Of a DNA stretch of 43,691 nt, positions 67-3,820 are shown one piece after another. Source of the DNA: Fusobacteriaceae bacterium. GTDB lineage: Bacteria > Fusobacteriota > Fusobacteriia > Fusobacteriales > Fusobacteriaceae. How positions within the stretch are numbered: the stretch's first letter is position 1; every line of letters starts with the position of its first letter. Under the pieces are notes generated by a model. That model had not been told where the DNA came from and searched no databases. It saw only the letters and a list, made by a program, of their open reading frames with translations. The position numbers and the translations under genes are program-made. The DNA lies in assembly GCA_031272775.1 (NCBI GenBank), contig JAISTB010000035.1, forward strand, positions 1-43,691. The letters are read 5' to 3'.

Positions 67-1374
67 CTATCCTTCCTGGGTCAACTCCAGAACCTTCCCG
101 ACGAAATACAAAGGAATATTCGTAATCCCGCCATTTTTCATATATCCGTTTGTGCTGAAGCGGACAGCCGCTTCCAGTTTGTATTTCCCGATATAATTCT
201 TGAAGCTGACGGCATTTTTGTTTTCACTGGATTTAACCTCAACGGGAATCACGTTTTCGTCCCGCTGAAAAATAAAATCAATCTCCCTGTCTTGCGCGTA
301 GGCGTAAAAGTAAGGCGGGTAGTCCAAAAGAGGCAAAAGCTGTTCCAACACATAGTTTTCGGCCAATTGCCCTTTGAACTCAAAGGCTTCCGACAGCAAG
401 ATGGATTTATTGGTGAGCCCGGCCATATGCTTGATCAAACCGACATCCAGCAGGAAAAGCTTGAAGTAATTCAGTATTTCATAGGTTTTCAGCGGATATT
501 CGTTTTTTGATACATTGAGGATACGATAAACGATTCCGCTTGAGACAAGCCACTCGATGGCGTCCTCAAAATCCTTTGCCCTCGCGCTTTTACTGATTGC
601 GGCGTACATAAACTTCTCATTGTTTCTTTTGGCGAGCTGGGGTACAATGCTTCTGAACACCTGCAGGATACGACCGCTGTTAATTTTGCCGCTGTGCTTG
701 GTGAAATCGTCCTCGTAAAGGGAGACAATCTCCCCTTGAATGACGCTTATTTCTTCGGGGGCGGCCTTCGTTGCCCAGGATTGGACGCACTCAGGCATTC
801 CGCCGATGATCAGGTATTTTTTATAGTGCTCCGTCATTCGTTCGTGAAAGGCGGAAACATAATCTTTTCCTGATTTGACCGAAGTAAAATATTGGTACAT
901 CCCCTTGTCGACGGCCGCCAGATATTCTTCAAAAGTCAAGGGATAGACGTCCAGCAGATTGACTTTCCCAACGGGATAGGACACGGGCTTTGCGAGATAC
1001 GTTCCCAGCAAGCTTCCGGCGGTTATGACGTGGTATTCGTTTGCCTCTTCGTTGAAATATTTCAGACTGCCGAGGGCGTTGGGACATTCCTGTATTTCGT
1101 CCAAAATGACAAGGGTCTTTCCGGGTAGAATGGTTTTTCCCCGAATGAGACTCAGCCGTTCAAGAATCCGCTTCGGATTCTTGGTGTCGTTAAAGATCCC
1201 GGCCGCGTCGGCGTCTTTATCGAAACTGACATAGATGCTGTCCTTATAGTACCGTTTCGAAAACTCCTTCATCAACCAGGTTTTACCGACCTGTCTCGCG
1301 CCTTTCAATACGAGAGGTTTTCTTCGTGAACTGTCTTTCCAGCGTGCCATTTCTTCCAAAGCCTTTCTGTACAT
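67..1374 (-). CDS. AAA-family ATPase with C-terminal DUF4143 domain
   Basis: A 435-residue ATPase of the AAA_14/DUF4143 group. Near the N-terminus (residues about 25-32) lies a Walker A motif, GARQVGKT, and around residues 88-93 a Walker B motif, LVILDE. The C-terminal third holds the DUF4143 region, ending in a PD-(D/E)xK-like segment with EIDFIF and PVEVKSSE around residues 375-395, typical of nuclease folds. Function in this family is not settled; members are widespread, multi-copy and horizontally mobile. I chose the ATG at 1374 because GGAG stands just upstream and the family normally starts MYRK; the ATG at 1416 would overlap the -10 box of the promoter. The gene is monocistronic and is preceded by four phased repeats (1422-1532). 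The left neighbour is outside the window. Confidence 0.85.
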   Translation of the reverse strand: MYRKALEEMARWKDSSRRKPLVLKGARQVGKTWLMKEFSKRYYKDSIYVSFDKDADAAGIFNDTKNPKRILERLSLIRGKTILPGKTLVILDEIQECPNALGSLKYFNEEANEYHVITAGSLLGTYLAKPVSYPVGKVNLLDVYPLTFEEYLAAVDKGMYQYFTSVKSGKDYVSAFHERMTEHYKKYLIIGGMPECVQSWATKAAPEEISVIQGEIVSLYEDDFTKHSGKINSGRILQVFRSIVPQLAKRNNEKFMYAAISKSARAKDFEDAIEWLVSSGIVYRILNVSKNEYPLKTYEILNYFKLFLLDVGLIKHMAGLTNKSILLSEAFEFKGQLAENYVLEQLLPLLDYPPYFYAYAQDREIDFIFQRDENVIPVEVKSSENKNAVSFKNYIGKYKLEAAVRFSTNGYMKNGGITNIPLYFVGKVLELTQEG

Positions 1375-1414: not shown

Positions 1415-1443
1415 AATATACCACGTTTTTAAGAAAAAATCAA
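1415..1443 (-). promoter_or_regulatory. Promoter of the AAA/DUF4143 ATPase
   Basis: On the minus strand TTGATT (1443-1438), a 17-base spacer and TATATT (1420-1415) form a good sigma-70-type promoter. The spacer contains the first of the four CACGTTTTTAAGAA repeats, so a protein bound there would block polymerase. Confidence 0.7.
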
Positions 1444-1532
1444 GGGGAAAAATCACGTTTTTACGAAAAAAAATGAAAAGAATTACTGCGTTTTTAAGAG
1501 TTTTTTAGAGAAAATTTTCACGTTTTTAAGAA
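1422..1532. repeat. Four phased 14-bp direct repeats upstream of the ATPase gene
   Basis: The plus-strand sequence CACGTTTTTAAGAA occurs at 1422-1435 and 1519-1532, with variants at 1454-1467 (one mismatch, ACG for AAG) and 1487-1500 (TGCG start, GAG end). Starts are 32, 33 and 32 bases apart, about three helical turns, so all copies face the same side of the DNA. The first copy lies inside the promoter spacer. This looks like an operator array or iteron set, with the neighbouring ATPase an obvious candidate ligand; that link is inference. Confidence 0.75.
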
Positions 1533-1561: not shown

Positions 1562-1590
1562 TTTACACAAGACCCTTTTTCCTGTATAAT
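1562..1590 (+). promoter_or_regulatory. tex promoter
   Basis: TTTACA (1562-1567), a 17-base spacer and TATAAT (1585-1590). The -10 box covers the in-frame ATG at 1589, which rules that codon out as the tex start and supports the one at 1670. Confidence 0.8.
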
Positions 1591-1669
1591 GGAAAAGGAC
1601 GACGCGGTCGCGGACGACAGCCGGATCGCGTCAAACCTCAGTAAATTCACCGAAAAAGGAGCAAAACCC

Positions 1670-3820
1670 ATGACCATCCCCGCGAAATTAGCCAAAGAAT
1701 TCACCCTGCCCCTCCCTCTGACTGAAGCCGTCATCGCCCTGATCGAAGAGGGCAACACGATCCCTTTCATCGCCCGTTACCGTAAAGAGGCGACCGGCGG
1801 CATGGACGACGTGACGCTCCGAGCCTTTGACGAAAGGCTTTCGTATCTGAAAGGCCTCGAAGCCCGCAAAGAAGAAGTGATCCGTCTCATCGACGAACAG
1901 GGCAAGCTGACGGAAGCGCTCCGGGCCGAGATCGAAAGCGCGGAAATCCTCCAGCGCGTCGAGGATCTGTACAAGCCCTTCAAAAAGAAGCGGGCCACCA
2001 GGGCCTCCAAGGCAAAGGACGCGGGTCTCGAGCCTCTGGCCGCCCTGATGTTGGAGCAAAAGCTGACTACGGGAGATCCGCTGGAATCGGCCGCCCCCTA
2101 TGTCCAGGCCGAAAGCCCTTACGATACGCCGGAAGCGGCTCTGGGCGGGGCCTGTGACATCATCGCCGAGCAGATCGCCGACGATCCCGAACTCACGGGA
2201 ACGCTCCGGGACATGACGCGAAAGCAGGGGATCATTTCCTCGGAGGCCGTCAACCCCGATGAGAAGAGCGTCTATGAGATGTATTACAATTTTACGGAGC
2301 CAGCGGCAAAAATCCTCAACCATCGGATTCTGGCAATCAACCGCGGCGAGAAGGAAGAAAAACTTAAGGTCAGACTGGTCGTGGAGCAGGATAAGCTGAC
2401 GAACTGCGTGGAACGCCGGATCATCAAAAGGCCTTCCATATTTACGGAGCTTCTTAAAACAACCGTTGCCGACAGCTACAAGCGCCTCATGGCCCCCTCC
2501 CTCGAACGGGACATCCGCAACGAGCTCACGGAGCGGGCGGAAAAAGACGCCATCGAGGTTTTCGCGAAAAATACGGAAAACCTCCTCAATACGCCGCCTG
2601 TCAAGGGGGCCAGAGTCATCGCCATAGACCCCGGCTACCGCACGGGCTGCAAGGTGGCGGTCCTTTCGGAGACCGGAAAACTTCTCGATTATACGACCAT
2701 TTATCCCACCGCGCCCAGAAACGACGTGGCAGGAACGGAGCGGACGCTTCAAAAATTGGCGGAAAAATATGAAATCAACGTCGTTGTCATCGGAAACGGC
2801 ACGGCCTCCCGGGAAACGGAGGAGGTGGTCGCGGGCTGGATCAAGAAAAGCGGCCTTTCCGTCAAGAGCACGATTGTCAACGAAGCGGGGGCCTCGGTCT
2901 ATTCCGCCTCAAAACTGGCCTCGGCCGAATATCCGGACCTGGACGTCACGACCCGGGGCGCCATGAGCCTCGGGCGGCGTTTGCAGGACCCGCTGGCGGA
3001 GCTTGTCAAAATTCCTCCCAAGAGCATCGGCGTGGGGCAATACCAGCACGACATCAATCAATCGGCTCTCGAAAAATCCCTTACCGGCGTCGTGGAAAAC
3101 GTCGTGAATCGCGTGGGGGTCGATCTCAATACGGCAAGCGCCAGCCTCTTGGGCTATGTATCGGGCATAAACGCCGCGGTTGCGGGAAATATCGTCTCTT
3201 ACCGGGAGGAGAACGGGAGCTTTACCGACAGAAAACAACTGAAAAAAGTCCCCAAATTGGGGGACAAGGCCTTCAAACAGTGCGCGGGCTTTCTCCGGAT
3301 CCGGGACGCGAAAAATCCTCTGGACGGGACGGCGGTCCACCCCGAAAGTTACGGGGCGGCCGCGGAAATTCTCAAAAGAGCGGGCGTTTCCGGGAAGGAG
3401 CTCACGACCGGGGGCGTGGCCGACATCGAAAAGCGGGTAGGCGACCAGAAGAAACTGGCGGAGGAGCTGGGCGTGGGTCTCCCGACGCTCCGGGATATTC
3501 TCGCGGAAATCAAAAAACCCGGCCGGGATCCCCGGGATGACGCGCCTCCTGTGATCTTCAACCGGGCGGTTCGGGCCATGGAGGATCTGGCCGTCGGCAT
3601 GCAGCTGACTGGAACGGTCAGAAACGTCGTCGATTTTGGGGCCTTTGTGGATATCGGCGTCAAGCAGGACGGCCTTGTCCACATTTCGCGGATGAGCGAG
3701 CGCTTTATCCGGCATCCCTCGGAAGCGGTGGCGGTCGGCGACACCGTTACGGTCTGGGTTACGGCCGTCGACAAGGAAAAAGGGAAAATCGGGCTCAGCA
3801 TGGTAAAAGGGAAGGTCTGA
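1670..3820 (+). CDS. tex: Tex family RNA-binding protein
   Basis: A 716-residue homologue of Tex, a cytoplasmic nucleic-acid-binding protein tied to transcription. The order matches the family: an N-terminal helical Tex domain (IPFIARYRKEATGG early on), a YqgF/RNase H-like core (VIAIDPGYRTGCKVAVL), a helix-hairpin-helix segment (GVDLNTASASLLGYVSGIN) and a C-terminal S1 domain (GTVRNVVDFGAFVDIGV, then DGLVHIS). The start at 1670 has AAAAAGGAG upstream; an in-frame ATG at 1589 lies in the -10 box and is not used. It is a single-gene unit ending in a terminator shared with convergent hflX. Confidence 0.95.
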   Translation: MTIPAKLAKEFTLPLPLTEAVIALIEEGNTIPFIARYRKEATGGMDDVTLRAFDERLSYLKGLEARKEEVIRLIDEQGKLTEALRAEIESAEILQRVEDLYKPFKKKRATRASKAKDAGLEPLAALMLEQKLTTGDPLESAAPYVQAESPYDTPEAALGGACDIIAEQIADDPELTGTLRDMTRKQGIISSEAVNPDEKSVYEMYYNFTEPAAKILNHRILAINRGEKEEKLKVRLVVEQDKLTNCVERRIIKRPSIFTELLKTTVADSYKRLMAPSLERDIRNELTERAEKDAIEVFAKNTENLLNTPPVKGARVIAIDPGYRTGCKVAVLSETGKLLDYTTIYPTAPRNDVAGTERTLQKLAEKYEINVVVIGNGTASRETEEVVAGWIKKSGLSVKSTIVNEAGASVYSASKLASAEYPDLDVTTRGAMSLGRRLQDPLAELVKIPPKSIGVGQYQHDINQSALEKSLTGVVENVVNRVGVDLNTASASLLGYVSGINAAVAGNIVSYREENGSFTDRKQLKKVPKLGDKAFKQCAGFLRIRDAKNPLDGTAVHPESYGAAAEILKRAGVSGKELTTGGVADIEKRVGDQKKLAEELGVGLPTLRDILAEIKKPGRDPRDDAPPVIFNRAVRAMEDLAVGMQLTGTVRNVVDFGAFVDIGVKQDGLVHISRMSERFIRHPSEAVAVGDTVTVWVTAVDKEKGKIGLSMVKGKV

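Follow-up and report, generated by a model that had tools for sequence, protein, structure and literature searches.

Genes encoding DUF4143 ATPases are preceded by arrays of short repeats whose pitch is specific to the protein clade and whose motif is largely private to each gene, and we hold it close to certain that such arrays are a feature of upstream regions in this family. The array is best read as a private operator: the encoded ATPase would bind its copies and repress its own promoter, a reading to which we assign a probability of about two in three. From sequence we infer the ATPase as reader, its arrangement on the copies and the repression; it is likely that the encoded ATPase reads its array, and silencing would be the most likely outcome of its doing so.

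The array from which the analysis started lies in the window, by which we mean the whole 43,691-nt stretch of Fusobacteriaceae DNA that was analysed. Upstream of the ATPase gene, four minus-strand copies of a 13-nt motif carry 0, 1, 2 and 0 mismatches to TCTTAAAAACGTG at steps of 32, 33 and 32 bp, within 1422-1531 (Table 1), and their triple-repeat score of 35.8 was matched by none of 5,000 dinucleotide shuffles (highest, 28.4), which bears out the fourfold motif reported in a preliminary description of this DNA. That description had also placed the first copy inside a 17-base promoter spacer, and copy 1 indeed lies wholly within the spacer of a sigma-70-like match, TTGATT-17-TATATT (1443..1415, minus strand), that agrees with 9 of 12 consensus positions and is weak by itself (3 such sites in 1.8 kb versus 2.2 in shuffles). 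Its term 'helically phased' suits the window lineage, where 32.3/10.5 gives about 3.1 turns per step, but not sister lineages, whose 23-bp and 40-bp arrays are out of helical phase. CRISPR repeats are near-identical, about 23-50 nt long and accompanied by spacers and cas genes; a CRISPR array was rejected for the window, in which the copies are 13 nt with 0-2 changes and an Rfam search returned zero matches. A tRNA search found none. On the plus strand, a divergent promoter match (11 of 12 positions, 1562-1590) begins about 30 bp from the distal copy and is followed by a large reading frame (1589-3820) whose product presumably resembles the accessory protein Tex; the array might also influence this frame. 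A perfect TTGACA-17-TATAAT match at 11-39 on the minus strand is directed off the contig end.

Table 1 Features of the array, its promoter and the ATPase gene in the window
Feature	Position	Strand	Basis or remark
Array copy 1 (gene-proximal), TCTTAAAAACGTG, 0 mismatches	1422-1434	-	Inside promoter spacer
Array copy 2, TCGTAAAAACGTG, 1 mismatch	1454-1466	-	
Array copy 3, TCTTAAAAACGCA, 2 mismatches	1487-1499	-	
Array copy 4 (distal), TCTTAAAAACGTG, 0 mismatches	1519-1531	-	
-35-like TTGATT	1438..1443	-	Consensus scan
-10-like TATATT	1415..1420	-	Consensus scan
ATPase gene, 435 aa from ATG at 1374, AAA_14 + DUF4143, PADLOC PDC-S01	67..1374	-	Pfam; PADLOC
AAA_14 domain, residues 18-152	919..1323	-	Pfam
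DUF4143 domain match	226..714	-	Pfam
Winged-helix domain (predicted; candidate reader of the array), residues 233-308	451..678	-	AlphaFold2 model
Predicted PD-(D/E)XK nuclease-like domain, residues 311-421, E339/D366/E379/K381 kept	112..444	-	AlphaFold2 model and conservation

The 2.09-Mb source genome holds 17 DUF4143 matches, and arrays were found at 9 of the 16 loci scanned. The scan for phased triple repeats covered these 16 loci in 443.7 kb of contigs picked for holding DUF4143 genes and gave 19 hits, with DUF4143 promoters making up 9 of the top 12. Nine of the other ten hits lie inside open frames (152 to 789 codons long), and in eight of these nine the steps are multiples of three; the tenth, C14:27709, follows the stop codon of a DUF4143 gene. 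This last array (in locus L078) comprises three CCTTCGGAAAACGTG-like units at 33 bp directly past the stop of the clade-D gene L002, and no clade-A gene was seen beside it. The window 13-mer, allowing one mismatch, occurs four times genome-wide: three times in the window array and once upstream of the DUF4143 paralogue L011, which has four copies of its own at steps of 33, 33 and 33 bp, the fourth more divergent. By eye, many other paralogue upstreams carry arrays or palindromes of differing motif. The motif of L012 (17-mer, up to 2 mismatches) is confined to its own three copies, and that of L006 (15-mer, up to 2 mismatches) has five own copies and two matches elsewhere (mirror control, 5 hits). 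The search upstream of other DUF4143 genes that the preliminary description had proposed thus turned up arrays, but the paralogue motifs differ from that of the window. Single palindromes at the promoter, with no arrays, were seen by eye upstream of L002, L003, L008 and L009, and three of these four genes encode GPRQxGK Walker motifs.

Across the family, a significant array lay just upstream in 96 of the 179 distinct DUF4143 genes tested and 83 fell below threshold, several of the latter showing, on visual inspection, a palindrome or one or two sites. An early survey of 33 genes (14 of the 17 from the source genome and 19 from relatives) gave a triple array at the lowest P value (0.005) in 17 of 32 testable genes and a repeated pair in four more; excluded from it were L100, at a contig end, and the broken or partial L009, L016 and L017. 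Across the surveys, the upstream regions of L098, L176, L182 and L249 were too short. A group of 21 relatives was viewed by eye and enters no count, and one further set of relatives was fetched and scored in part. For clade A, an alignment scan of a collection with one genome for each of 84,980 species supplied the best 80 loci, which come from many phyla and are 39-66% identical. Among the 78 testable upstreams, 47 had arrays at P ≤ 0.005 and 46 of these also at z ≥ 4, the two thresholds together being passed by 4 of 189 control upstreams (other genes at the same loci). Both steps fell within 31-34 bp in 44 of the 78 versus 1 of the 189 controls, and that lone control is the array just 3' of the L170 DUF4143 gene. 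Comparable results were obtained for other clades in 80 regions (79 testable) from 11 of these genomes, drawn from the matches listed in 22 genomes; nine of these regions duplicate clade-A loci and were dropped, and a tenth, L285, repeats L147 and has no array, so that 180 scored rows represent 179 distinct genes. Repeats are therefore present upstream of both paralogues (9 of 16 own-genome loci) and homologues elsewhere (46 of 78 testable), the observation on which the preliminary description had staked its proposal. Among the matches listed, the genes are dispersed and reach about 20 copies per genome. A core-motif chain finder run on 300-nt upstreams was too permissive, giving long chains in shuffles as well, and its counts were not used; an iterated position weight matrix slipped by one base in register and served for the core alone.

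The step between copies follows the protein lineage. The 96 arrays fall into classes of 32-34 bp (n = 70), 22-24 bp (n = 18) and 38-40 bp (n = 8), and on a maximum-likelihood tree of the 96 proteins these classes require 4 changes (minimum 2) against a mean of 24.5 for shuffled classes (0 of 200 as low), on a quick tree in which long branches were flagged and two labels within clade A, L179 and L181, do not share its step class. Walker A types behave likewise: an array precedes 14 of 16 genes for KWCGK-type proteins, in all 14 at a step of 23 or 24 bp, and 9 of 10 for GARRxGK proteins, all at 32-34 bp, with arrays in only 2 of 13 for GPRxxGK and 8 of 22 for GxRRxGKS. This pattern bears on the notion that the repeats are helically phased, curved A-tract DNA working as an UP-like promoter element that needs no specific reader. 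Clade-A units do contain A-tracts, and 32-33 bp approximates three turns, but phasing fails at steps of about 23 and 40 bp, many motifs do not consist of A-tracts and the motif is largely gene-specific and tracks the protein, so that we give this notion very little credence. We think just as poorly of the idea that the arrays are neutral tandem duplications or insertion remnants: some near-perfect tandem 33-mers exist (L154, L159), but most arrays share chiefly a core of about 15 positions while the remainder of the unit varies, and the same step occurs with unlike motifs in many phyla.

Motifs are close to private within a genome. Comparing 15-mers in six genomes, an array's own copies differed by 0.6-1.8 mismatches on average, and the best match to other arrays of the same genome had 4.8-5.7 mismatches, against 5.2-5.8 in shuffled DNA. 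Privacy is incomplete, since 11 of 278 within-genome comparisons had at most 3 mismatches versus 4.0 expected from shuffles. At the same time, motif similarity in the 33-bp class (n = 70) climbs with protein identity (r = 0.58; P = 0.002, the lowest value that 500 permutations allow). For the 23-bp class (n = 18), a circular comparison gave r = 0.28 (P = 0.011; opposite strand, -0.27); it took the place of an initial similarity measure that was blind to register shifts (r = 0.15, P = 0.08). In the 40-bp class (n = 8), that initial measure yielded r = 0.24 (P = 0.11), and by circular comparison the motif does not track protein identity on the same strand (r = 0.15, P = 0.26); the opposite strand gave r = 0.44 (P = 0.04), strand being uninformative in this class because its units look palindromic. 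One 85%-identical pair, L101 and L102, has an unlike motif tract (GGAAAACGTGA versus GATTTCGTGAG).

The clade-A core AAAA(A)YGTG recurs across phyla, which makes a single widespread reader imaginable, and within-genome motif matches lie slightly above shuffles; both observations lend something to the proposal that another host regulator or a nucleoid protein reads the arrays and co-ordinates the ATPase genes. We nevertheless judge this proposal improbable, because the arrays of one genome are mostly unlike each other and show up to three steps, which one reader cannot serve, because the step tracks the ATPase tree and because no neighbour gene recurs.

Arrays comprise 3 to 7 copies, and the median distance from the start of the last copy to the start codon is 51 nt in the 33-bp class, 50 nt in the 23-bp class and 56 nt in the 40-bp class. 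Overlap of the three-copy span with the top sigma-70-like promoter candidate occurs in 61 of 96 genes versus 47.9 expected from shuffled upstreams, a modest excess; an earlier count with extended arrays (72 of 96) carried no control. Overlap between array and promoter is thus favoured but not proved by these sequence comparisons. When 50 genomes, all chosen for holding a clade-A gene, were searched with the motif only (AAAAYGTG three times at 32-33 bp), 33 hits were obtained in 22 genomes, and the mirror-image pattern gave 0 in 50. A DUF4143 gene starts within 300 bp in 26 of 30 fetched loci, or 24 of 28 distinct arrays, because two pairs among the 26 are overlapping hits within one array; it is missing at the other 4, which are bacterial. 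At L370, an array of GGTCAAGAAAATGTG type precedes a small cysteine-rich reading frame with no ATPase gene. Among 46 cases, copies of a gene's own motif occurred 3' of the gene at P ≤ 0.01 once on the same strand and never on the opposite strand, and 3' arrays were accordingly rejected as a general feature. Arrays on the 3' side or duplicated flanks were seen at L170 (after 1928), L184 (both flanks) and L358, and are perhaps traces of cassette exchange. A regular partner gene was rejected as well, neighbour families appearing in at most 4 of 80 loci, some of which have short flanks. Because motif-only loci are mostly DUF4143 promoters, downstream copies are rare and no neighbour recurs, the array's regular companion is the ATPase itself. 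The preliminary description had offered an autoregulatory operator or a nucleoprotein target of the ATPase, and this is supported as the best reading of the sequences, since step and motif follow protein phylogeny and no other gene stands regularly beside the array.

That the gene behind the window array encodes an AAA/DUF4143 ATPase, as first described, was confirmed by Pfam matches above curated cut-offs (AAA_14, E = 1.5e-28; DUF4143, E = 4.3e-33). The protein also matches the profile of PDC-S01, which PADLOC lists as a candidate for phage defence by a single gene, over its full length (E = 6.2e-158, residues 1-429), as do five paralogues tested with PDC-S01 profiles, all step classes being represented among the tested proteins. 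Searches by sequence returned no PDB relatives (E up to 0.01) and, for three proteins searched, no NCBIfam match. An AlphaFold2 model built from 55 sequences has a mean pLDDT of 90.8, is least sure in blocks between residues 221 and 270 (means 51-89), and predicts that a winged helix (233-308) and a nuclease-like domain (311-421) follow the AAA module, the winged-helix call resting on the order of helices and strands in the model. We take the last domain to have the PD-(D/E)XK fold. That name agrees with the description of PDC-S01 in PMC12988326. In structure searches, the top Foldseek match was DNA-bound archaeal Orc1, at a weak TM of about 0.25-0.3, and VIA-align ranked PABY2304 first (Z 15.7, rmsd 4.6 over 266 residues; residues 1-319) and SSO1545 second (Z 14.5, rmsd 4.1 over 259 residues; residues 1-318), followed by NLR-type proteins over residues 1 to about 320. 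The window model thus shows an AAA module and then a winged helix in a PABY2304/SSO1545-like fold, a layout whose class name we take to be STAND/MNS; a common fold with STAND/MNS ATPases demonstrates no function. Partial correlations of motif with domain did not single out the winged helix (AAA, 0.198; linker, 0.118; winged helix, 0.157; nuclease, 0.086) in a set that left out six 33-bp genes, four off clade A in the tree and two others.

The catalytic residues set the 40-bp class apart. All four of E339, D366, E379 and K381 are present in 68 of 70 proteins of the 33-bp class and in 18 of 18 of the 23-bp class; in the 40-bp class only 1 of 8 has all four, K381 is replaced in 4 of 8 and unreadable in 3 of 8, and E379 is replaced by Q in six (L013, L014, L015, L107, L109 and L114). 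Units in several members of this class look palindromic. Since arrays persist there despite mostly changed catalytic residues, nuclease activity is not what retains them, which argues for a regulatory over a cleavage role. The same persistence weighs against the ATPase binding its array chiefly for something other than repression, such as activation, formation of a nucleoprotein complex, a role resembling that of a partition site or an origin, or storage of a nuclease until a signal arrives. Such uses are suggested by the resemblance of the AAA and winged-helix fold to DNA-bound Orc1 (at weak TM) and to STAND proteins, by the rare 3'-side arrays or repeated flanks (L170, L184, L358) and by a promoter overlap just modestly over chance; arrays nonetheless lie almost always 5', with the last copy at a median of 50-56 nt from the start codon in all classes, and we regard these uses as rather unlikely.

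Under the operator reading, the ATPase, with its AAA, winged-helix and nuclease-like domains, would line up along the array with one protomer or dimer bound to each copy, and the geometry of the oligomer would fix their spacing at about 33 bp in the window lineage and about 23 or 40 bp in sister lineages. As the copies span the putative -35 and -10 elements, the bound assembly would silence its own promoter and so keep a possibly toxic nuclease scarce.

Arrays with the clade-A core also occur in viral contigs, where the AAAAYGTG triple pattern at 32-33 bp was found at 16 loci; control steps gave 4 loci at 27-28 bp, of which two are a single coding repeat, and none at 37-38 bp. The 16 include three sets of near-copies (L308/L312, L333/L334 and L335/L337). 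A DUF4143 gene was present in 2 of the first 8 viral records and in none of the other 6, with 8 of 16 records searched and some possibly fragments; L305, L306, L307, L309 and L311 gave zero matches in this search. Arrays with the clade-A core at 32-33 bp steps were seen in these five and in L331-L337. In L310, likewise without DUF4143, the repeats seemingly lie in coding sequence, and L330 is another kind of tandem repeat. Several viral arrays sit between phage genes and are oriented with the next gene, that of L305 lying just ahead of a reading frame that resembles a small terminase as judged from reading its sequence. Decoys, borrowed operators and relics are all possible readings. One speculative extension, which we consider unlikely, is that PDC-S01 ATPases are a large set of mutually orthogonal array readers, each assembling on the array of its own promoter at a lineage-set pitch, and that the arrays borne by phages close to phage genes are decoys or signals drawing the ATPase off its promoter or onto phage DNA.

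Plasmid partition offers a familiar parallel in its parC and iteron centromeres, whose iterated sites are the operator of the reader's own gene; DUF4143 loci differ in having no second partition gene and no recurrent neighbour family. Archaeal Orc1/Cdc6 paralogues, which combine AAA and winged-helix domains, each have a set of ORB repeats beside the gene, and the DUF4143 family resembles them as AAA and winged-helix paralogues with gene-adjacent repeats, but its genes are dispersed and have sigma-70-like promoter guesses in or near the array. The best structural neighbours, the archaeal Walker-type ATPases PABY2304 and SSO1545, match only up to the nuclease-like domain, and we know of no array for either. 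The nearest functional precedent found, by analogy, is RptR, a 9-kDa dimeric repressor on 9-bp repeats that represses a defence island via three direct repeats over the promoter, according to the available part of PMC12255303. Both cases have direct repeats ahead of a gene linked to defence, over the promoter for RptR and over a putative promoter for the ATPase, RptR being a self-encoded repressor where here the ATPase is the putative reader; the DUF4143 arrays differ in their steps of about 23, 33 or 40 bp, in the mostly private motifs of paralogues and in that no small repressor recurs. Membership of the RptR family was rejected, the window array being without TAGCTA and the gene encoding a 435-aa ATPase.

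A literature search, with most subscription papers outside its reach, found no account of arrays at DUF4143 genes; the accessible text of PMC4406477 mentions DUF4143. In the portion of PMC12988326 that was available, PDC-S01 ranks fourth in abundance among the defences of prokaryotes and is described as an ATPase joined to a PD-(D/E)XK member; most candidates of this sort are said to await validation, and no cis element, operator or regulation is mentioned there. The window protein and the tested paralogues of other step classes match the PADLOC profiles of this system, and arrays were found here. A recurrent and largely private DNA target, pitched according to lineage, offers a way into what PDC-S01 ATPases bind, and the arrays supply ready substrates for footprinting and structure work. 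One genome may offer about ten orthogonal repressor-operator pairs, as in a Treponema with 11 arrays. The arrays also make the defence question testable, namely whether phage-borne arrays alter the outcome of infection; if the decoy reading were true, a very common defence system would use the array as its sensor.
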